Positions 1-29,689 of a DNA stretch of 64,000 bases are shown here, piece by piece. The position numbers and the translations under genes were made by a program. Position 1 is the first letter of the stretch. Each line of letters begins with the position of its first letter. Where the stretch lies: assembly GCA_020849105.1 (NCBI GenBank), contig JADLGW010000015.1:1-64000 (forward strand), in the 5' to 3' direction. The notes under the pieces are model-generated. The model did not search any database, had not been told where the DNA came from, and saw nothing but the letters and a program-made list of their open reading frames with translations. The DNA is from Phycisphaerales bacterium (GTDB taxonomy: Bacteria > Planctomycetota > Phycisphaerae > Phycisphaerales > UBA1924).

Positions 1-1
1 C

Positions 2-430
2 TCCGACCGCATCTGGCCGCTCTTCACGCTGTGGAAGGACTCAACCCACTACATCGAGTTCCTGGCCGACTGCGAGAACTCTCGCTGCCTTGTACGCATC
101 AGGAACGGGTCAGGTGCCGTCTCGCAGGTCCCGTTCGCGCCCGGCAACTTCTGGCTGCCCGATGCCCCGCTGTTCGTCGCCTTCTCCTACAACAGCACGA
201 GCCACGCTCTGACTCTCGCGGCAAGTCTTGGCTGTGGGCAGGTGCAGACGTACACGGTCGCGGCCTTTGTCCCCGGATCGGCGTATGACGCCCTGAAGTT
301 CCGCGGCGCGATAGGAGGATACAGCAACGACGGCGAGGTCTGTGAACTCCGTGTGTTCGGGGGCCAGATCGATACTGCGAGCGGAGTCGATGTCTCGGCG
401 GCCTTCGCCGACCTGGCATTTCTGTTATAA
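2..430 (+). CDS. C-terminal part of signal-less lectin-like array protein (copy 0)
   Basis: The reading frame is open from base 2 and ends in TAA, so the start lies outside the window. The translated piece aligns along its whole length with the last two thirds of the proteins at 1697-2353 and 3600-4253, sharing SDRIWPLFTLW near its start, a NFWLPDAP motif and the end DLAFLL. The family is not one I recognise. Its beta-rich pattern could fit a LamG/concanavalin-type jelly roll, which is inference only. A 46-bp stretch (258-303) is identical to 4084-4129 but differs from the middle copy, suggesting exchange between copies. The next gene starts 12 bp downstream behind an AGAGGAAA-type ribosome binding site, so the two are probably co-transcribed. 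Confidence 0.85.
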   Translation, partial: SDRIWPLFTLWKDSTHYIEFLADCENSRCLVRIRNGSGAVSQVPFAPGNFWLPDAPLFVAFSYNSTSHALTLAASLGCGQVQTYTVAAFVPGSAYDALKFRGAIGGYSNDGEVCELRVFGGQIDTASGVDVSAAFADLAFLL

Positions 431-442
431 AGAGGAAATGAG

Positions 443-1675
443 ATGAGAAGGAGTCTTGTTCTCGCGTCAGTCGTGACGGCGCCGGTTTTTGCTCAGCCCT
501 TTCCAATCCTTCGGATTGCAGATACTTCCACAATAATCCCCGGTACCACCACGCCTTTCGCACTCTTCAACTACCCCAGCGCCGGCAGCGGCGTCGTCGG
601 CTTCTCCGGCACATCCTCCGTGATCCTGAATCCGGGGATCCCTGCGGGAGTGTACCGGGGTTCCGGCGGCGGATTGTCGATCATCGCTGACATCACCACC
701 CCGATACCCGGCGGCATCGGCAACTTCACTCAGTTTGCTCTGATCGAGCGCTGGGGTCCCGCGCTTAGCGGCGTGAATACCGCCTTTGTCGGCGACGGAA
801 TCGGCACGAGTTTCATTCAGCGAGGCATTTACTTGCGCGGCGGTGGGGGACTCTTGCGAGTCGTTGATCGGGCCACCCCGATTCCCAATGGATCCGGGGC
901 TACGTTTGGAGCGATCTGGCCTCCCGCGGTCGATCAGGCACGAGTTGCCTTTGTGGGTGGCCAAGCGTTCGTCGGCGTTCCGACCGGATTGTTTTTCTGG
1001 CACGGCGCATCGCTCACTGCTGTTGCAGATACATCTACGCCAATCCCCGGACAGCAGGTTCACTTTACAGGCTTTGGTGACTGTGATTGGGATGGTGCGC
1101 GTCTTGCGTTTTCCGCTTTCGGCCAAGCGGGCTATCGCGGCGTGTTCCGCGCGGATTCAAGCGGCACGATCACTCGCCTCTACGACACGAATACCTTCGT
1201 TCCCGGTGGCAACGGCGGCGCGTTTGTGGGAATCGGCGAGATCAGCATGGATGATGGCCATGTCTCGTTCTACGGCACAGGCGGGGGCCAGAACGGCATC
1301 TACACCGACCTTCCGGGCTCTCTCACCTTCGCCGCCCACATCGGTACACCGATTCCCGGCCGCCCCGGTCTACATTTCACGACGTTCGGCCGTTCCGATC
1401 TCAGCGGGAATATCGTGACGTTTATCGCGGATCAAGGGGCCTATTTCTGGAAGGACGGTACGCTTCAGGCCGCGCTCAATCCCGGCGACCTGCTTGACGG
1501 CCGAACGGTGAGTCTCGTGAACATGAGCAAGGACGGATTTGAGGGCTTCACTCTTGCGCTGTATGTCGAGTTCACCAACGGCTCACAGGGCATCTATATG
1601 GCCACGATCCCGGGGCCGGGGGTCGTCGTCAGTCTCGCGGCCGCGGGCCTGTTCTTTGCACGCCGGCGGCGCTGA
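443..1675 (+). CDS. Secreted seven-repeat (propeller-like) protein with PEP-CTERM-like tail, copy A
   Basis: This 410-residue protein has a signal peptide ending near VFAQ (residue 18). Seven degenerate repeats of about 47-59 residues follow, marked by ADTSTIIPG-like motifs starting near residues 26, 82, 141, 195, 248, 299 and 346. The last (LNPGDLLDG) is the most diverged. Seven repeats of this size suggest a seven-bladed beta-propeller, which is inference. The end is PGPG, a hydrophobic stretch of about 14 residues, then RRRR, a PEP-CTERM-like signal that exosortase-type systems use for envelope sorting. No enzyme motif is visible. It lies between two signal-less partner genes with short gaps, in an apparent operon of alternating genes. 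A role as a surface or matrix protein is a guess. Confidence 0.85.
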   Translation: MRRSLVLASVVTAPVFAQPFPILRIADTSTIIPGTTTPFALFNYPSAGSGVVGFSGTSSVILNPGIPAGVYRGSGGGLSIIADITTPIPGGIGNFTQFALIERWGPALSGVNTAFVGDGIGTSFIQRGIYLRGGGGLLRVVDRATPIPNGSGATFGAIWPPAVDQARVAFVGGQAFVGVPTGLFFWHGASLTAVADTSTPIPGQQVHFTGFGDCDWDGARLAFSAFGQAGYRGVFRADSSGTITRLYDTNTFVPGGNGGAFVGIGEISMDDGHVSFYGTGGGQNGIYTDLPGSLTFAAHIGTPIPGRPGLHFTTFGRSDLSGNIVTFIADQGAYFWKDGTLQAALNPGDLLDGRTVSLVNMSKDGFEGFTLALYVEFTNGSQGIYMATIPGPGVVVSLAAAGLFFARRRR

Positions 1676-1696
1676 GCCGAAAAGGGAGCAGCCATC

Positions 1697-2353
1697 ATGA
1701 TGATGCTTGACTTGGCGCTCGACGGCAACGGCGCGATCCCGTACCCGCTCAGGCCGCTGGACCCGAACAATCCCGGGCAGAACGTCGGGCCGGATGAACA
1801 CCTTGCGCTCAGCGGCTTCAGCCTTGGCTCAAATCACGACTGGCACATCAAACTCGCGCTGATGATGCCGACCGGCAACTGGGATTTCACGTGCGCTCGC
1901 GGCCAAGTGAGCGGCGGACTATTCCTGAGCGACCGCATCTGGCCGCTCTTCACGCTGTGGACAGATTCAACGCACTACATCGAGTTCCTCGCCGACTGTG
2001 AACACTCGCGATACCTTCTACGCATCAAGAACGGGTCCGGCCCCATCGCACAAGTGCCGTTTGGTAGCGGGAACTTCTGGCTTCCGGACGCGCCACTGCT
2101 GGTGTCGCTGGCGTACAACGGCTCTACCCATTCATTGACGGTGGGCGCCAGTCTCGGTGGTGATCAGGTCCAGGCGTATACGCTTGTGGGCTTTGTCCCG
2201 GCGTCCGTCTATGAGACACTGAAGTTCCGGGGTGCCGTCGGGGGATACAGCGGGGATGGCGAGGTCTGTGAACTTCGGATCTTTGGCGGCCTCATCGACT
2301 CGGCGAGTAACTTCGGCGCTGGTAGTTTCTCGGACTTGGCATTCCTCCTTTGA
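1697..2353 (+). CDS. Signal-less lectin-like array protein (copy 1)
   Basis: This 218-residue protein starts MMMLDLALDGNG at the first of three consecutive ATG codons, behind an AAAGGGAG ribosome binding site. It has no signal peptide or membrane segment, although both neighbours are secreted. Conserved points shared with its paralogues are SGFSLGSNHDWH, a DRIWPLFTLW block, NFWLPDAP and a CELRIFGG block near the end. The predicted strands suggest a beta-sandwich, possibly LamG-like, but no residue proves sugar binding. The downstream gene begins 9 bp after the stop, and GAGGAG overlapping the stop codon serves as its ribosome binding site. Function unknown. Confidence 0.85.
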   Translation: MMMLDLALDGNGAIPYPLRPLDPNNPGQNVGPDEHLALSGFSLGSNHDWHIKLALMMPTGNWDFTCARGQVSGGLFLSDRIWPLFTLWTDSTHYIEFLADCEHSRYLLRIKNGSGPIAQVPFGSGNFWLPDAPLLVSLAYNGSTHSLTVGASLGGDQVQAYTLVGFVPASVYETLKFRGAVGGYSGDGEVCELRIFGGLIDSASNFGAGSFSDLAFLL

Positions 2354-2362
2354 GGAGAACAG

Positions 2363-3577
2363 ATGCGATGCATAACTCTGATGGCGGTTGGCTTGGCGCC
2401 CACCGTCGTCGTAGCCCAGCCGTTTCCAATCATGCGGATCGCCGACACCTCGACGACGATCCCCGGCACTCCCGCGCACTTTGCGCTATTCAATGCTCCG
2501 AGCGCCGGCAATGGAGTAGTTGGGTTCTCCGGAACCTCGTCCGTCATACTAAATCCTGGCGCGCCAGCAGGCGTTTATCGCGGCAGCGGCGGTGCCCTAT
2601 CGATCATTGCGGACACGTTCACGCCCATCCCTGGTGGCATCGGCAACTTTAAGAACTTTGCGGTCCTCGAACGCTGGGCTCCATCGCTGAGCGGTAGCGA
2701 AACTGCGTTCGTTGGCGATGGCGCCGTCACTCGCGGACTCTATGTGCGAACGGGTGCAAATCTCCAGCGGATCGTCGATAGCGGCATGTCGCCTCCAAAC
2801 GGCGGAGGAACAACTTACTCAGCCGTTGGACCGCCGTCGCTGCGTGAAGGCCAGGTTGTGTTTCTTGGCTACACGGTCACGCAGGCAAGTCTTTACTCCT
2901 GGCGTGGAGGCACGCTCTCAGTCGTCGCAGACCGTTCTACGCCAATCCCTGGGCGACCGGGCACGTTTACCGATTTCGGCGACTGCAACCTGAATGACGG
3001 CGTCATCGCGTTTTCTGCACACGGACCAGGCGGATACTCAGGCATCTTTTCAACCGTTGCCGCTGGATCGATCACCCGACTTTACGACACAAGTACCGTG
3101 GTTCCCGGCGGCAATGGAGGGACCTTCGTCAGTCTCGGGGAGGTCAGCATGGACCTGGGTCACGTCTCGTTCTATGGCACCGGCGGCGACCAGAACGGGA
3201 TCTACACCGACCTTCCGGGCTCTCTCACCTTCGCCGCCCACATCGGCACGCCGATTCCCGGCCGCCCCGGTCTGCATTTCACAACGTTTGGTAGTTCGGA
3301 CCTCAGCGGCGATATCGTTGCGTTCAATGCGGATGACGGGGTGTACTTGTGGCGCGATGGCCTGCTCCAGAGCGTCTTGAATCCGGGCGACCTCCTTGAC
3401 GGCCGTGTCGTGTTCGGCGTGGCAATGGGCGAGCAGGGCTTTGAAGGGTCGACGCTCGCCCTCCGCGTCGAGTTCACCAACGGCTCCTCCGGTATCTACA
3501 TGGCCACGATCCCGGGGCCGGGGGTCGTCGTCAGTCTCGCGGCCGCGGGCCTGCTCTTTGCACGCCGGCGGCGCTGA
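2363..3577 (+). CDS. Secreted seven-repeat protein with PEP-CTERM-like tail, copy B
   Basis: This 404-residue paralogue of the protein at 443-1675 has a short signal peptide (MRCITLMAVGLAPTVVVA), the same series of ADTSTxIPG-type repeats and the same PGPG/hydrophobic/RRRR tail. The repeat beginning GIYTDLPGSLTF is almost identical in all three copies, while the earlier repeats have diverged. The gene starts right after the stop of the partner gene, so translation is probably coupled. The shared 3' block runs past the stop into the start of the next partner gene and is nearly identical in DNA to that at 1600-1790. No catalytic residues are apparent. Confidence 0.85.
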   Translation: MRCITLMAVGLAPTVVVAQPFPIMRIADTSTTIPGTPAHFALFNAPSAGNGVVGFSGTSSVILNPGAPAGVYRGSGGALSIIADTFTPIPGGIGNFKNFAVLERWAPSLSGSETAFVGDGAVTRGLYVRTGANLQRIVDSGMSPPNGGGTTYSAVGPPSLREGQVVFLGYTVTQASLYSWRGGTLSVVADRSTPIPGRPGTFTDFGDCNLNDGVIAFSAHGPGGYSGIFSTVAAGSITRLYDTSTVVPGGNGGTFVSLGEVSMDLGHVSFYGTGGDQNGIYTDLPGSLTFAAHIGTPIPGRPGLHFTTFGSSDLSGDIVAFNADDGVYLWRDGLLQSVLNPGDLLDGRVVFGVAMGEQGFEGSTLALRVEFTNGSSGIYMATIPGPGVVVSLAAAGLLFARRRR

Positions 3578-3599
3578 GCCGAAAAGGGGGGCAGCCAGC

Positions 3600-4253
3600 A
3601 TGATGATGCTTGACTTGGCGCTCGACGGCAACGGCGCGATCCCGTACCCGCTCAGGCCGCTGGACCCGAGCCATCCCGGGCAGAACGTCGGACCGGATGA
3701 ACACCTTGCGCTCAGCGGCTTCAGTCTTGGCTCGAACCATGACTGGCACGTCAAACTTGCGCTCAAGATGCCTACGGGGAACTGGGACTTCACCTGCGCG
3801 CGGGAGAGTTCGCCGGGCTCCGGCATCTCCGACCGCATCTGGCCGCTCTTCACGCTGTGGAAGGACTCGACCCACTACGTCGAGTTCCTGGCTGACTGCG
3901 AGAACTCGCGTTACCTCGTCCGCATCAAGAATGGCACCGGTCCTACCTCCCAGGTGCCGTTTGGCGGCGGGCACTTCTGGCTTCCCGATGCACCGCTCCT
4001 TGTATCGCTTTCGCACAGCGGTTCCACCCATGCATTGACCGCCAGCGCCAGCCTCGGGGGCGATCAGGTGCAGCCCTACACCCTCGCGGCCTTTGTCCCC
4101 GGATCGGCGTATGACGCCCTGAAGTTCCGAGGCGCCACTGGCGGCTTTAGCAACGACGGCGAAGTCTGCGAACTCCGGATCTTCGGCGGCCTCATCGATA
4201 CGGCGAGCAACGCCGGTGCAGGCGATTTCTCCAGCCTGGCATTTCTCGTCTGA
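3600..4253 (+). CDS. Signal-less lectin-like array protein (copy 2)
   Basis: This 217-residue paralogue of 1697-2353 also begins with three ATG codons (MMMLDLALDGNG). A longer in-frame extension upstream exists, but it lies inside the previous gene and lacks homology, so 3600 is the start. The residues around DRIWPLFTLW, FWLPDAP and CELRIFGG are kept. Its N-terminal DNA matches copy 1 very closely, while bases 4084-4129 match copy 0 instead, so the gene is a mosaic. Its stop is followed by GAGGAGAG and the next secreted protein begins 10 bp later. Function unknown. Confidence 0.85.
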   Translation: MMMLDLALDGNGAIPYPLRPLDPSHPGQNVGPDEHLALSGFSLGSNHDWHVKLALKMPTGNWDFTCARESSPGSGISDRIWPLFTLWKDSTHYVEFLADCENSRYLVRIKNGTGPTSQVPFGGGHFWLPDAPLLVSLSHSGSTHALTASASLGGDQVQPYTLAAFVPGSAYDALKFRGATGGFSNDGEVCELRIFGGLIDTASNAGAGDFSSLAFLV

Positions 4254-4263
4254 GGAGAGGACA

Positions 4264-5493
4264 ATGAGGTTTGTCATTGCCAGTCTGAGCCTGCCAGCCG
4301 TCGCGCTGGCACAGCCCTTTCCTATCGTCCGTATCGCCGACACCTCAACGCTAGTCCCAGGAACTTCGACACATTTCAAGTTGTTCAACTATCCAAGTGC
4401 CGGTCAAGGAGTAGTTGGCTTCTCCGGCACGTCCTCCACCATACTGAACCCTGGGATTCCGGCGGGTACCTACCGCGGTTCTGGCGGCGCGCTGTCGATA
4501 ATCGCGGACACCACAACGCCCATTCCTAGTGGTACGGGCAACTTCACCCAGTTCGCCCCCGGTGAGCGGTTCGGCCCCTCACTTTCCGGCCCGGACACCG
4601 CATTTGTTGGAGACGGAGCCGGCACGAGTTTCATTCAGCGCGGGATTTATGTTCACTCCGGCGCGACGCTGACAAGAATAGTCGATCGCGCGACGCCGGT
4701 GCCGCACGGCGCGGGGGGTGCGTTTTTCAATATTCTACCGCCCACCCTGGAAGCAAGCCATCTCGCCTTTGTCGGGTGGGAGTCCAACAACGGACAGCGG
4801 GGGGTGTACCAATGGTCAGCCGGCTCGCTGTCGTCTGTGGCCGACAAATCGACCCCGATTCCCGGCCAGTCGGGCACTGTGTTTACGGACTTCGGGGATT
4901 GCGCCCTCAGCGATGGCGTCATTGCGTTCTCCGGATTTGGGCCGGGAGGGTATTCGGGCATTTTTCGCACGGGTCCAGGTGGATCGCTCACTCGCTTGTA
5001 CGATACCAATATGGTTGTCCCCGGCGGCAACGGCGGGTCATTCGCGGCGCTGGGCCGAGTAACGCACGATCACGGACGTGTGGCGTTCTTTGGCACCGGC
5101 GGCGACCAGAACGGCATCTACACCGATCTTCCGGGCTCTCTCACCTTTGCCGCCCACCTCGGCACGCCCATCCCGGGCCGGCCGGGGCTCACCTTCAGTT
5201 CGTTCGGTCGCGTCGACCTGAGCGGCGACATCGTCGCCTTTATCGCCGATGACGGCGCGTATTTCTGGCAGGACGGCGCCCTTCACCCGGTGCTCAATCC
5301 GGGCGATCCGCTTGACGGCCGCATCGTGGACCTTGTCAACATGAGCAAGGACGGCTTTGAGGGCTCCACCCTCGCTCTCCACGTCGAGTTCACCAACGGC
5401 TCCTCCGGCATCTACATGGCCACGATCCCGGGGCCGGGGGTCGTCGTCAGTCTCGCGGCCGCGGGCCTGTTCTTTGCACGCCGGCGGCGCTGA
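4264..5493 (+). CDS. Secreted seven-repeat protein with PEP-CTERM-like tail, copy C
   Basis: This 409-residue third copy starts at MRFVIASLSLPAVALA, a clean signal peptide ending before QPFP. The repeat motifs (ADTSTLVPG, ADTTTPIPS, VDRATPVPH, ADKSTPIPG, YDTNMVVPG, AHLGTPIPG, LNPGDPLDG) are all present. The tail is the same PGPG, hydrophobic stretch and RRRR. An upstream in-frame ATG at 4216 lies within the preceding gene and would add a stretch with no signal character, so it is rejected. The gene is followed by only a fossil of a fourth partner gene, which marks the right edge of the array. Confidence 0.85.
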   Translation: MRFVIASLSLPAVALAQPFPIVRIADTSTLVPGTSTHFKLFNYPSAGQGVVGFSGTSSTILNPGIPAGTYRGSGGALSIIADTTTPIPSGTGNFTQFAPGERFGPSLSGPDTAFVGDGAGTSFIQRGIYVHSGATLTRIVDRATPVPHGAGGAFFNILPPTLEASHLAFVGWESNNGQRGVYQWSAGSLSSVADKSTPIPGQSGTVFTDFGDCALSDGVIAFSGFGPGGYSGIFRTGPGGSLTRLYDTNMVVPGGNGGSFAALGRVTHDHGRVAFFGTGGDQNGIYTDLPGSLTFAAHLGTPIPGRPGLTFSSFGRVDLSGDIVAFIADDGAYFWQDGALHPVLNPGDPLDGRIVDLVNMSKDGFEGSTLALHVEFTNGSSGIYMATIPGPGVVVSLAAAGLFFARRRR

Positions 5494-5511
5494 GCGGGAA
5501 AGGAGGCACGA

Positions 5512-5600
5512 GCATCACAAACTCCCTGCTTGATACGACGCGCGACGGTCATGCACCGGACAACTTCTGGCTGCCCGATGCCCCCCCGGCTCGTGGTCGG
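5512..5600 (+). pseudogene. Deletion fossil of a fourth signal-less array protein
   Basis: Just after the third secreted protein the DNA reads, in one frame, LLDTTRDG and then directly DNFWLPDAP. The first motif resembles the start of the intact partners (MLDLALDG) and the second is their conserved mid-protein motif. The intervening hundred or so codons and the start codons are missing. The simplest reading is a copy that lost its middle by internal deletion. It has no usable start, and what follows is unrelated. Confidence 0.6.
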
Positions 5601-5730
5601 CGGCCCTGTCGCCGCGACGAGCGATCCACGGAATCCTGACCCTCCAAGCGGCTTCTGCCCGCTTGATGACGGTGACGCGCCGACGCGGGCCGCGCCGCGA
5701 GCGTTCTCAAACCCCGTGCAGGAGACTCCC

Positions 5731-6756
5731 ATGCGATTCCGTGACGACCGCCGCCGTTCCCAGAGCCTGGCATCCGCGATCACTGCCGCGGCACTGGGGT
5801 TTGGGATGCTCGCGGACACGCTGCTTGCGATTCCGCAGCCTGAACGGGCGCTCGGGGAGGGCTGGTGCAGTACGGACGATGCCGGGGATGGCAACACCGT
5901 GCCCAGCAGATGGCCCGGCGGGATTGTGCCCTACCGCTTCAACACCAATGTGACGGCGCTCAACCAGCAGCGCTCGGTGGAGGCCATGGCGGAGATTGAG
6001 GCGGTGTGCAACGTGGACTTCATTCCTTGGACCGGACAGGCCGCCTACATCTTCATCAACGCCAGCAACGTCAACAGCTCGTGTGTCGGCTACGGCGGCG
6101 GGTTCTGCACGGTGAACATCGCCGAGTGGTACCTCAAGGGCACCATCATCCACGAGTTCGGTCACTCACTGGGGCTCCATCACGAGCAGAAGCGGACCGA
6201 CCGCGACCAGTACGTGCAGGTCAACATGGCCAACACATGCAACGCCGGAAACAACTACACGATCGCCGGCACGGCGTTCGGCCCGTACGACTTCGAGTCG
6301 ATCATGCACTACTCCCGGTACGGTTGGACGCGCGATGGGGGCCCGGTGATGACCGTGCTTCCGGCGTACGCCGAGTGGAAGTACTACTGCGGGGACGGCG
6401 ACTCGCTGAGCAACGGGGACATCTGGGTGCTGAGCGAGATGTACGGCGGCTCGAGCTGGCCGCGGCCCCCGCGGACGTTCGCCCTGACAGCGCCCGCGCA
6501 CCGAGCGCGCGTGGGGACGGGATGGACTCCATCCTTCCAGTGGCAGAGCGGCGCGGGCGCCGACTCCTACCACCTGCAGGTCGATGACGATCCGTACTTC
6601 ACCAGCCCCGAGATCGACGTGTCGGTGGTCGGTACCAGCCATGTATCCGGCACGCCGCTGCCGGACGGGCGCGTCTTCTTCTGGCGCGTGACGGGCGTCA
6701 ACGGGACAGGGGAGACGGAGGCGCGCCCCCGCCCGGTGCGGCGCCCCCGGACCTGA
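5731..6756 (+). CDS. Secreted astacin-family (M12A) zinc metalloprotease
   Basis: This 341-residue protein begins at the ATG after GCAGGAGA. A signal peptide spans about residues 1-33. The peptidase domain covers about 45-245 and carries HEFGHSLGLHHE at 141-152, the HExxHxxGxxHE astacin zinc motif. The Met-turn SIMHY is at 190-194. A fibronectin-III-like module follows at about 255-335. Astacins cut proteins outside the cell, often after removal of a propeptide; here the pro-region can only be very short (about 34-60). An in-frame extension upstream to 5530 covers the array fossil and is not part of the gene. A secreted protease beside a cell-surface array is suggestive, but no functional link is shown. 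Confidence 0.92.
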   Translation: MRFRDDRRRSQSLASAITAAALGFGMLADTLLAIPQPERALGEGWCSTDDAGDGNTVPSRWPGGIVPYRFNTNVTALNQQRSVEAMAEIEAVCNVDFIPWTGQAAYIFINASNVNSSCVGYGGGFCTVNIAEWYLKGTIIHEFGHSLGLHHEQKRTDRDQYVQVNMANTCNAGNNYTIAGTAFGPYDFESIMHYSRYGWTRDGGPVMTVLPAYAEWKYYCGDGDSLSNGDIWVLSEMYGGSSWPRPPRTFALTAPAHRARVGTGWTPSFQWQSGAGADSYHLQVDDDPYFTSPEIDVSVVGTSHVSGTPLPDGRVFFWRVTGVNGTGETEARPRPVRRPRT

Positions 6757-6842
6757 AGGCGGCGGGCATCGAGGATCAGGACAACCGGGGGCGGTGCGCG
6801 ACTTGTCGCACCCGGGCGTACGCCGGCACACAGCGGGAAAAG

Positions 6843-6913
6843 CAGGGGATCTAGGATTTGAACCTAGACTAACTGATCCAGAGTCAGTCGTGCTACCGTT
6901 ACACCAATCCCCT
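6843..6913 (-). tRNA. tRNA-Gln (anticodon CTG)
   Basis: The complementary strand folds as a 71-nt cloverleaf. It has acceptor AGGGGAT/ATCCCCT, a D arm closed by GTG/CAC, anticodon stem ACTGA/TCAGT around loop CTCTGGA (anticodon CTG), T arm CTAGG/CCTAG with loop TTCAAAT, and discriminator G. CCA is not encoded. It lies in the gap between the astacin gene and the DUF885 gene. Confidence 0.93.
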
Positions 6914-6982: not shown

Positions 6983-8857
6983 ATGGTCAATCCTCACGCG
7001 GTGCTCGGCCGTCTCCTCGTGGGCACGCTCTTCCTCAGCTCCGCAGCCGCCGGCGCCCAGCCGGCTTCCCCCGGGGCGCCCGCGGCGTCGCCGGAACTGA
7101 CGGCGGCGCCCGCGGGCAGGTCAGCGGTGCTGTGGGGCCTGATGAACGACCTGCTGGATGCGGAACTGCGGCGCGGCCTGGAGAGCGGGCTCCAGTTCGG
7201 CGACGAGCGGTTCCTTGATGTGCTGCCCGACGCGAGCCCCGCGGGCGTCGCGGCGTGGGACGCCGTGCTCGACGGCTTCCGCGAACGGCTCGCCGCCATC
7301 GATCGCGAGTCGCTCGGCGACGAGGATCGGGTGGACGCGGACCTGCTCGACGATTCGTTCCAGACGGAACGGGCCGGGCGGCGATTCCACGCGGAGCAGA
7401 TGCCGGTGACGGCGATCAGCGGGCCCCAGTTCTGGCTGCCGCAGGCCGCCCTCACGCTGCCCTTCCGCACGCCGTGGCACTTCGAGTCGTATGTGCGAAC
7501 GCTGGAGCGCATCCCGGCGTTGCTGGCCCAGCAGACAGAGCAGATGCGGCTCGGGATGGCGGCCGGTCGCACGCGGCCGCGGTCGATTGTCGGGAAGTCG
7601 CTCCCGGTCGCACGGGCCCTGGTGGTCAAGGACGCGGAGACGAGCCCGTTCTTCGCGCCGCTGGCGGCACTGCCGCGGGATGACCCGATGCGGGCCCGTG
7701 CGCTCGCCGCGGTGCGCGGCGGGGTGATCCCGGCGTTCGCGGCGTTCGCGGACTTTCTGGAACACCAGTACATCCCGGCCTGCCGCGAGAGCACCGCCGC
7801 CTCGGACGGGCCCGACGGGCCCGCGTGGTACGACTACCGGCTTCGGGCCGAGACGACTACGACGATGACGGCCCGGGAGGTCCACGACCTGGGCCTCTCT
7901 GAGGTCGCGCGCCTGCGTGATGAGATGATGCGCGTGATCGCGGAGACGGGCTTCCGTCCGGCCCGGATGCTGACGGGCGACGACCTGTTCGCCGCGTTTG
8001 TGGTGCACCTGCGCAACGATCCGCGGTTCTACTGCAAGACACCCGAAGAACTGCTCACGCGCTACCGGGATATCTGCAAGCGGATCGACGGGCAACTGCC
8101 GGCCCTGTTCGGGACGCTCCCGCGGAACAGTTACGGCGTGAAGGAGATCCCCGCATTCGCGGCGCCGACCTCGCCCACGGCGTACTACTACGTCGGCACG
8201 CTCAGGGGCGGGGTGGCGGGCAACTTCATGGCCAACACACACCGCCTGGATCAGCGTCCGCTGTACGAGGCGACGGCCCTGGCGATGCACGAGGCGGTGC
8301 CGGGCCACCACCTGCAGATCGCACTGGCGCAGGAGATGACGGGGCGGCATCCGCTCCGCTCGACACGCGGGTACACCGCGTTCGTTGAGGGCTGGGCGCT
8401 GTACGCCGAGGGGCTTGGGCTCGAGATGAATGCGAACGCCACGGAGCCCCCGCGGAGCGGCGGGGTACCCAGGGGCCTCTACGCCGACCCGTACGACGAC
8501 TTCGGCCGTCTGAATATGGAGATGTGGCGGGCGCTGCGGCTGGTGGTGGACACCGGCCTGCACCGTGAGGGGTGGACGCGGCAACAGGCCATCGACTACA
8601 TGGCGAAGAACTCGGCCCTGGCGCGGCTGAACATCGAGAACGAGGTGGACAGGTACATCGGCTGGCCGGGCCAGGCGTGCGCGTACAAGATCGGGCAACT
8701 CAAGATACTGGAACTGCGGCGGCGGGCGGAGTCCGCGCTGGGCCCGAAGTTTGACCTGCGCGCATTCCACGACGCGGTGCTGCTTGCGGGCCCTCTGCCG
8801 CTGCCCGTGCTGGAGCGGCGGATCGACCGCTGGATCGACGGGGAGCGGGGCCGCTAG
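6983..8857 (+). CDS. DUF885-family secreted metallopeptidase-like protein
   Basis: This 624-residue protein has a signal peptide of about 26 residues ending near SSAAAGAQ. The body matches the DUF885 family, thought to be zinc carboxypeptidase-like enzymes. The hallmark HEAVPGHHLQ lies at 436-445, and the downstream FVEGWALYAEG (from residue 467) supplies a likely third ligand. Length is usual for the family. The substrate is unknown. It converges with the next gene, and the two share the palindrome CTAG as their TAG stop codons. Confidence 0.88.
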   Translation: MVNPHAVLGRLLVGTLFLSSAAAGAQPASPGAPAASPELTAAPAGRSAVLWGLMNDLLDAELRRGLESGLQFGDERFLDVLPDASPAGVAAWDAVLDGFRERLAAIDRESLGDEDRVDADLLDDSFQTERAGRRFHAEQMPVTAISGPQFWLPQAALTLPFRTPWHFESYVRTLERIPALLAQQTEQMRLGMAAGRTRPRSIVGKSLPVARALVVKDAETSPFFAPLAALPRDDPMRARALAAVRGGVIPAFAAFADFLEHQYIPACRESTAASDGPDGPAWYDYRLRAETTTTMTAREVHDLGLSEVARLRDEMMRVIAETGFRPARMLTGDDLFAAFVVHLRNDPRFYCKTPEELLTRYRDICKRIDGQLPALFGTLPRNSYGVKEIPAFAAPTSPTAYYYVGTLRGGVAGNFMANTHRLDQRPLYEATALAMHEAVPGHHLQIALAQEMTGRHPLRSTRGYTAFVEGWALYAEGLGLEMNANATEPPRSGGVPRGLYADPYDDFGRLNMEMWRALRLVVDTGLHREGWTRQQAIDYMAKNSALARLNIENEVDRYIGWPGQACAYKIGQLKILELRRRAESALGPKFDLRAFHDAVLLAGPLPLPVLERRIDRWIDGERGR

Positions 8858-28262: not shown

Positions 28263-29689
28263 AGCGTGCGGCCTTCGTGCGATGCGCGACGGCGTGGGCG
28301 TGCGGACTTATGGCCCATGCCGTGGCGGCGCAGCCCTGCACGCCCTACTGGTCGCGCGTGGGCGGCGCGGGCGGCGACCCCCCGAATACGGCGGTGACAT
28401 TCTCGCTTGCGGCCTTTGATGACGGGAGTGGCCCCGCGCTCTACAAGACCGGGCCGCTCTGGTCTGTCCCGGGGGTTCCCAACGAGGGATGGCCGGTCTG
28501 CAAGTGGAACGGCGTGAACTGGGAGGCGATCGGGGCGGGTCTCCCGCCCGACGTTGACGCGGCGTCGTACCTCCAGTTGGCGAGACTCGACGACGGAGCC
28601 GGGGAACGTCTGTACCTGCTCGGGTTTCGTAACCCCCCCGGGCCTTCCTATCTGTACCACTTCGCCGCACGCTGGGACGCCGGCGCCTGGACCATGATGC
28701 CGCGTCAGTTCTGCTACAGCGGGGACAGCCCGCAGGGCCCGCCCCCCGGCTACGCCATCCCCGGGGGCAGTTGGGACGACGGTTCCGGGAGCGCGATCTA
28801 CGGCGTGCGGGCTCACGCACTGACCAATGAGGTCCACGTCGCCCGCTGGGACGGCGCGGGATGGACGGACATCGGGCCGCGGCTCGCAACGGTCACGCCC
28901 GAAGAAGCCCGCATCTTCTGCTGGGCGCACTACGACGACGGCTCGGGCGATGCGCTCTACATGCTCGGTCGCTTCCGGATGTTCCCCTTCCCCTCCGCCC
29001 CGTTCAACCTCGCCCGCTGGGACGGGGTGTCGTGGTCCAGCGTCGGCGGCGCGATCCCCAACAACCCGACCGCGATGGCCGTGTTCGACGATGGTTCCGG
29101 GGACGCGCTGTACGTCTCAGACTTCATCGTCGGCCACAGCACCCCGGGCCACGTCAGGAACATCGGCAGGTGGGACGGGCACACCTGGACCAGCATCGGC
29201 GCGTTCGGCGAGAAGACCTACGGCACCGGGACCGTCTACAGCCTGACCCCCTTCGACGACGGATCGGGGCCGTCGCTCTTCGTGACGGGCATCTTCCGCA
29301 CCGCCGCCGGGATGCCCAGCCGCGACATCGCGCGGTGGGACGGATCGTGGCACGCCGTGCCCCCGGGGCTTTCGTACTTCAACAACGCGACCGCGGTGTT
29401 CGACGACGGGCGGGGTCCATCCCTCTTCATCGGGGGTGACTTCCACACCGCCGGCGGCGGCGTGGCCCGCGGCCTTGTCCAGTACGTCGGCTGCCCGAAC
29501 TGCTACGCCGATTGCAACCGGGACGGCGCCCTCACCCTCGCCGATTTCGGCTGTTTTCAGACGAAGTACGCGATCGGCGACCCGTACGCCAACTGCAACC
29601 TGGACTTCAACCCGGGCTCCATTACCAACGGGCTGAGCGTCGCCGACTACATGTGCTTCCAGGCCAGGTTCGCGATGGGGTGCCCGTAG
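28259..29689 (+). CDS. Secreted seven-repeat DDGSG protein with dockerin-like C-terminus
   Basis: This 476-residue protein has a signal peptide ending near AVAAQ (25). Seven repeats carry the motif DDGSG followed by a strand such as ALYVSD: FDDGSGPALY, LDDGAGERLY, WDDGSGSAIY, YDDGSGDALY, FDDGSGDALY, FDDGSGPSLF and FDDGRGPSLF. This fits a seven-bladed propeller. The last 65 residues have two calcium-loop motifs, DCNRDGALTLADFGCFQ and a second with LSVADYMCFQ, as in planctomycete dockerin-like tails. It is coupled by ATGA to the upstream secreted protein. It is probably surface or matrix associated; its ligand is unknown. Confidence 0.87.
   Translation: MKRAAFVRCATAWACGLMAHAVAAQPCTPYWSRVGGAGGDPPNTAVTFSLAAFDDGSGPALYKTGPLWSVPGVPNEGWPVCKWNGVNWEAIGAGLPPDVDAASYLQLARLDDGAGERLYLLGFRNPPGPSYLYHFAARWDAGAWTMMPRQFCYSGDSPQGPPPGYAIPGGSWDDGSGSAIYGVRAHALTNEVHVARWDGAGWTDIGPRLATVTPEEARIFCWAHYDDGSGDALYMLGRFRMFPFPSAPFNLARWDGVSWSSVGGAIPNNPTAMAVFDDGSGDALYVSDFIVGHSTPGHVRNIGRWDGHTWTSIGAFGEKTYGTGTVYSLTPFDDGSGPSLFVTGIFRTAAGMPSRDIARWDGSWHAVPPGLSYFNNATAVFDDGRGPSLFIGGDFHTAGGGVARGLVQYVGCPNCYADCNRDGALTLADFGCFQTKYAIGDPYANCNLDFNPGSITNGLSVADYMCFQARFAMGCP

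Follow-up and report, generated by a model that had tools for sequence, protein, structure and literature searches.

A contig of a Phycisphaerales genome opens with an array in which genes for exported beta-propellers of the DUF7453 family (hereinafter B) alternate with genes for a partner domain that has no export signal (hereinafter A′). By homology, A′ is the C-terminal domain of a large uncharacterized protein, A, and not an independent small family, and in this and other genomes A is encoded directly upstream of a DUF7453 gene. With moderate confidence, we propose that the array stems from partial tandem duplication of an ancestral A–B operon, with B being exported and anchored and A and A′ being cytoplasmic after the loss of a signal peptide.

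The window, i.e., the whole stretch of 64,000 nucleotides that was analyzed, is the start of contig C15 in a 3.29 Mb assembly of 61 contigs that is 94% complete. The array lies at 2–5600 on the forward strand and reads, from the contig edge, A′ tail, B1, A′, B2, A′, B3 and A′ fossil. All the elements of the initial annotation, namely three secreted proteins alternating with three partners (one cut by the edge) plus a fossil, were located:

2–430, forward strand: A′1, the C-terminal 142 aa of the partner (A) gene, truncated by the contig start
443–1675, forward strand: B1, secreted DUF7453 seven-repeat beta-propeller with a PEP-CTERM-like tail
1681–1699, forward strand: ribosome-binding site AAAAGGGAG and start codon of A′2, within a junction that is 97–100% common to other units
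1697–2353, forward strand: A′2, standalone ConA/lectin-fold domain (predicted), 218 aa, without signal peptide
2363–3577, forward strand: B2, secreted DUF7453 propeller with a PEP-CTERM-like tail, a near-copy of B5 on contig C53 (dS 0.26)
3600–4253, forward strand: A′3, standalone ConA/lectin-fold domain (predicted), 217 aa, without signal peptide
4264–5493, forward strand: B3, secreted DUF7453 propeller with a PEP-CTERM-like tail (AlphaFold2 pLDDT 82.7)
5494–5610, forward strand: A′ fossil, a junction remnant and a short A′-matching stretch

The A′-matching stretch of the fossil, at about 5553–5600, comprises 32–44 nt that resemble nucleotides 136–178 of A′1 and A′4 at 84–91% identity. The partner copies in the window share 70–82% protein identity (dS 0.9–1.5, dN/dS 0.12–0.18), a likeness far above chance. 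Each A′ is separated from the next B by 9–12 nt with overlapping ribosome-binding sites, and this tight spacing implies co-translation. Because the end of contig C53 carries the same sequence as the first ~127 bases of the window, we attribute the contig break at the window edge to the repeat itself. Directly after the array follow an astacin (M12A) metallopeptidase gene (5719–6756), a tRNA-Gln (CTG) gene on the reverse strand (6842–6913) and a gene for a DUF885 protein (6983–8857). With these neighbors and no transposase noticed, the idea of a mobile cassette was rejected.

The exported propeller and the signal-less partner domain

B1–B3 each display seven repeats, a short Sec-type signal peptide, a hydrophobic tail and a terminal RRRR. 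They are members of DUF7453 (PF24251), whose profile scores them at 62.3, 69.0 and 69.4 bits, respectively, all above its curated cut-off of 26.2 bits. For the related model of NxxGxxAF-repeat 'choice-of-anchor' proteins, TIGR05002 (cut-off 50 bits), B1 and B3 score 19.9 and 41.9 bits and B2 is unlisted. In contrast to the known DUF7453/TIGR05002 proteins, the B genes here are interleaved with those of a lectin-fold partner. The AlphaFold2 model of B3 shows a beta-propeller followed by a C-terminal helix (397–407), and comparison with the PDB bears out the propeller at the level of the fold. A PDB sequence match of B to threonine synthase (1kl7, E 0.00037) is weak and regarded as unproven, and a literature search found no paper naming DUF7453.

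The C-terminal tail of B1–B3 reads IPGPGVVVSLAAAGLFFARRRR, with the variant GLLFARRRR in B2. With the substrates of the PEP-CTERM/exosortase sorting system (Haft 2006, PMC1569441), B has in common the signal peptide, the C-terminal hydrophobic helix, the basic cluster and the presence of exosortases, for which this genome has two PF09721 matches; exosortases also occur in the three other genomes with the A–B pair. However, the motif region reads MATIPGPGVVVSLAAAGLFFARRRR, with IPGPG in place of the Pro-Glu-Pro that is near-invariant in PEP-CTERM domains (PMC1569441), and B is absent from the six PF07589 (PEP-CTERM) matches of the genome. As the motif and the profile match are missing and exosortases are present, the tail is classed as PEP-CTERM-like only. 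The signal-less partner, moreover, has no slot in the published sorting scheme.

A′ is 217–218 aa long and, in agreement with the initial annotation, lacks a signal peptide. That one was missed through a wrong start call is rejected, since an in-frame stop lies only 7 codons before A′2 (start at 1697) and the full-length A proteins in C44 (a further contig of this genome) and G004 start within a few residues of their conserved N-terminus, leaving no room for a signal; the in-frame upstream extension of A′3 (start at 3600) is likewise without one. Tat hitch-hiking was also rejected, the B signal peptides being short, of Sec type and devoid of a twin-arginine motif. B1 and A′2 share a frame, but read-through of the stop codon yielding a B–A′ fusion was rejected because A′3 is out of frame with B2.

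No Pfam or NCBIfam entry matched A′; for DUF7145 (PF23638), the scores are 18.0 and 17.7 bits over ~38 residues (cut-off 28.2). A PDB sequence match to the PilC minor pilin (7oa8, E 0.0048) is weak and regarded as unproven. An AlphaFold2 prediction from six sequences yields a beta-sandwich at moderate confidence (pLDDT 67.8, pTM 0.69). Foldseek relates this model to 225 chains with E < 1e-3 (best E 9e-6), and VIA-align gives Z 12–13 against legume lectins, galectins and the CBM40 domain of NanB. Judging by the model, A′ adopts the concanavalin A-like lectin/glucanase fold, a jelly-roll beta-sandwich. With identities of ~8% this assignment is a statement about the fold only, and a common fold is no proof of glycan binding. 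Among the CBM40 sialidases, A′ matches the N-terminal lectin domain of NanB (4xyx; VIA Z 13.0 over 160 residues, rmsd 3.1); in contrast to NanB, the lectin-type domain is C-terminal in A, and the two are 8% identical.

The full-length partner and its pairing with the propeller

The initial annotation treated the partner as a family in its own right, but it is the C-terminal domain of A, a protein of ~780–1000 aa. At C44, A′ corresponds to the last 225 residues of a 735-aa open frame (46% identity). A ribosome-binding site precedes the start of this A gene (MAVYTFKSDE), and close to the N-terminus its frame is shifted once, either in reality or through an assembly error. The DUF7453 gene begins 10 nt after it and encodes a B relative that exceeds the TIGR05002 cut-off (56.7 bits) and bears a dockerin_GC in place of the array tail. 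As with A′, no Pfam or NCBIfam model matched A. Its N-terminal part shows no PDB sequence match and a weak BNR match (E 0.1) in a single relative (P0010), and inspection suggests that this region is possibly sialidase- or propeller-like.

When 400 genomes of the order were searched with a profile of A, 48 proved to hold relatives, and 40 stretches from its matches were searched for A and B. At five loci, which represent four genera (C44 in this genome, G004 [JAEUIW010000006], G339 and two in G229 [JACMLW]), the gene that immediately follows A encodes a DUF7453 protein, with a spacing of 2–24 nt where the locus is intact. The search for the pair in other genomes that had been suggested at the outset thus returned four loci outside this genome. 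A tree was built from 43 A proteins; in it, those adjacent to B group in a single clade of five (SH-aLRT 100), and they lack a signal peptide wherever the start is visible (the N-terminus of L089 lies beyond a contig end). Relatives outside the clade mostly have a signal peptide, many have a dockerin, and they stand without a B neighbor; five further A genes elsewhere have neither a signal peptide nor a DUF7453 neighbor. The distribution of signal peptides on the tree requires 3 changes as against 9.1 in shuffles, of which 0 of 500 were as low. Since the B-adjacent clade is signal-less and the outside relatives usually carry signals, both the pairing and the missing signal are old, and the pairing predates the array. 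Signal peptides also occur in other sampled families of the order, which makes loss of the signal the simpler reading. The outcome named at the outset as a refutation, a partner that occurs alone in most genomes, is therefore half borne out, most A relatives being without B and having a signal peptide.

Standalone A′ was found only in the arrays of this genome: among 163 genomes of the family, the other 15 with a match have the domain as part of a longer frame, within a frame broken by a shift or where a contig ends, and neither these nor a class-wide sample of 397 genomes yielded a further standalone A′ or a second genome with such an array.

Several A genes are disrupted: the one at C44 carries a single frameshift, the second one of G229 carries two, and the copy at G004 C233 is broken. 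Decay of some A genes may underlie these breaks, as may errors in the assemblies. Frameshifted signal-less A genes were noted at L021 (C44), L091 (G229 C30), L037 (G004 C233) and L114 (G210 C106); the shift in L114 falls on nine consecutive C close to the start. Such shifts could reflect gene decay, phase variation or errors of assembly. The two A genes of G229 are also constrained (dN/dS 0.14–0.19). Separately, dockerin-tailed relatives of A at L039 (G008 C294) and L038 (G038 C66) adjoin other secreted-looking genes, named by eye as an S8-protease-like gene and a PhoD-like phosphatase with a dockerin, hinting that the neighbors of the A family are varied. No paper combining Planctomycetes, dockerin and sialidase was found.

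These relationships bear on an alternative in which A and A′ leave the cell by an unrecognized route and bind the anchored B outside, forming a two-component surface glycan-binding complex. In its favor stand the export of close relatives of A, which carry signal peptides and dockerins, the lectin-type fold of A′ and its tight coupling to an exported protein. In addition, a composition classifier, itself weak (AUC 0.75), scores the full-length signal-less A proteins as exported-like (0.73–0.89). However, no export signal, anchor or secretion-system gene was seen for the partner, and A′ is not clearly exported-like in composition (0.35). We hence hold this alternative to be unlikely, if still credible. 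Rather unlikely, too, is its extension, by which the Phycisphaerales would have a conserved surface system of two genes: the signal-less lectin-fold protein would exit by an undescribed route and dock on the co-translated anchored propeller, the docking domain having been freed in this genome and the pair amplified into recombining arrays.

Duplication, recombination and selection

A second, partly decayed array (locus L020) lies at 28897–32445 of contig C53 and reaches the contig edge. Its elements are, in order:

partner tail
B4
partner remnant
B5
~160-aa fusion frame (B6)

The partner remnant consists of the last 111 nt (~37 codons) of the gene, flanked by two open B genes, and the B6 frame leads from the ribosome-binding site and start codon of A′ straight into the end part of B. 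As A′ has decayed here beside open B genes, one-to-one pairing is not obligatory for every copy, and the persistence of B beside an A′ of ~37 codons indicates that at least one unit can do without A′. The initial claim that the pairing is kept through duplications consequently stands at the level of the five A–B loci, four genera and one clade, but not for each copy of the second array.

Across the units, the end of B, the spacer and the start of A′, ~200 nt in all, are ~95–100% identical between most units, silent sites included (B4 less so), as against 45–65% identity in the middle of B, i.e., the blades. Elsewhere in the genome, this junction has only a 27-nt match, in A itself. The relations between the two arrays are mosaic: B2 and B5 (dS 0.26) and A′1 and A′4 (0.30) are close, but B1 and B4 are distant (1.13). 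Such a mixture of near and distant copies is as expected from unequal crossing-over and gene conversion, and the B-end/A′-start junction is homogenized by recombination.

The A′ copies are under purifying selection (dN/dS 0.10–0.13). A′2 and A′3 differ with dS 0.92 and dN 0.12 (ratio 0.13); silent changes affect 1 of 28 sites in their first 40 codons and 82 of 129 in the remainder, where the ratio is 0.10. Given the homogenized junction, part of the constraint on this pair may predate the truncation of the domain. For A′1 and A′4, dS is 0.30 and dN 0.07 (ratio 0.22), with 20 replacement changes against ~79 expected if unconstrained. The B pairs show dN/dS of 0.16–0.21.

This pattern weighs on the view that A′ is a by-product, in that the 3′ part of A was dragged along by the duplication of B and is now decaying without a function of its own. 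Fossil A′ copies are present in both arrays, the B6 frame, with its A′ ribosome-binding site fused to a part of B, bespeaks careless recombination, and several A genes are frameshifted. Yet two A′ frames are complete, with good ribosome-binding sites and no stops, and the low dN/dS at dS ~1 together with the deficit of replacement changes argues for constraint, leaving this view an unlikely one. That the array serves as a store from which recombination varies a surface propeller, in the manner of phase or antigenic variation, with A′ mainly supplying homology, would fit the conserved junction beside strongly diverged blades and the mosaic relations of the two arrays, but is highly improbable given that the B pairs are under purifying and not diversifying selection and that no B gene of the window looks like a silent store, all three being complete with their own starts.

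A further locus with a comparable layout was noted on the reverse strand of a contig in another genome (L100, G303 C33). Here a signal-less A-like frame directly precedes a secreted HAF-like repeat protein with a PEP-CTERM-like tail, IPAPAS...RRRR, and beyond this tail the frame continues into what looks like a leftover of the A terminus (YAGRIHEAEARTASQQGDALRNLNMF... vs. YAGRIHETQARSEAQIADALQTLDML..., compared by eye; the profile search did not register the remnant). If this comparison is right, the layout of A, exported anchored repeat protein and A-tail remnant possibly arose twice.

A proposed history of the array and its meaning

The account that we favor, partial tandem duplication, would begin with an operon in which a large signal-less A with a C-terminal ConA/lectin-fold domain was followed by B, a seven-bladed DUF7453 propeller that is exported through Sec and kept at the envelope by either a dockerin or a PEP-CTERM-like tail. 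A would have shed its signal peptide once it was tied to B. The unit duplicated in this genome would be the C-terminal domain of A plus B, with the freed A′ gaining a ribosome-binding site and a start codon of its own behind the B stop and being retained as a standalone protein whose translation is tightly coupled to that of the next B. Through the near-identical junction, unequal crossing-over and gene conversion may then grow, shrink and shuffle the units as the blades diverge.

Functionally, A′ and B probably work together, with A′ seemingly staying inside the cell. We infer this localization and interaction from the gene arrangement and the missing signal, and the working place and ligand of A′ are the most doubtful step of the account. 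Most likely, A and A′ would be cytoplasmic, co-produced partners of glycan-binding type for an exported surface propeller, and the array would provide a small set of surface propellers, each with its matching lectin-like domain inside the cell; A/A′ and the anchored B might then act in one glycan-related process.

The system thus combines known parts, DUF7453 and a PEP-CTERM-like tail, in an operon for which we found no published description, and the array is unique among the genomes searched. It defines an uncharacterized protein family for which Pfam and NCBIfam hold no model. If the products of A/A′ and B do interact, an export route or a partnership between the inside and the outside of the cell is still to be found. 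Either way, a conserved operon joins an exported and anchored propeller with a protein that lacks an export signal, and in this genome a domain freed from a large protein has been held under selection as a separate gene.
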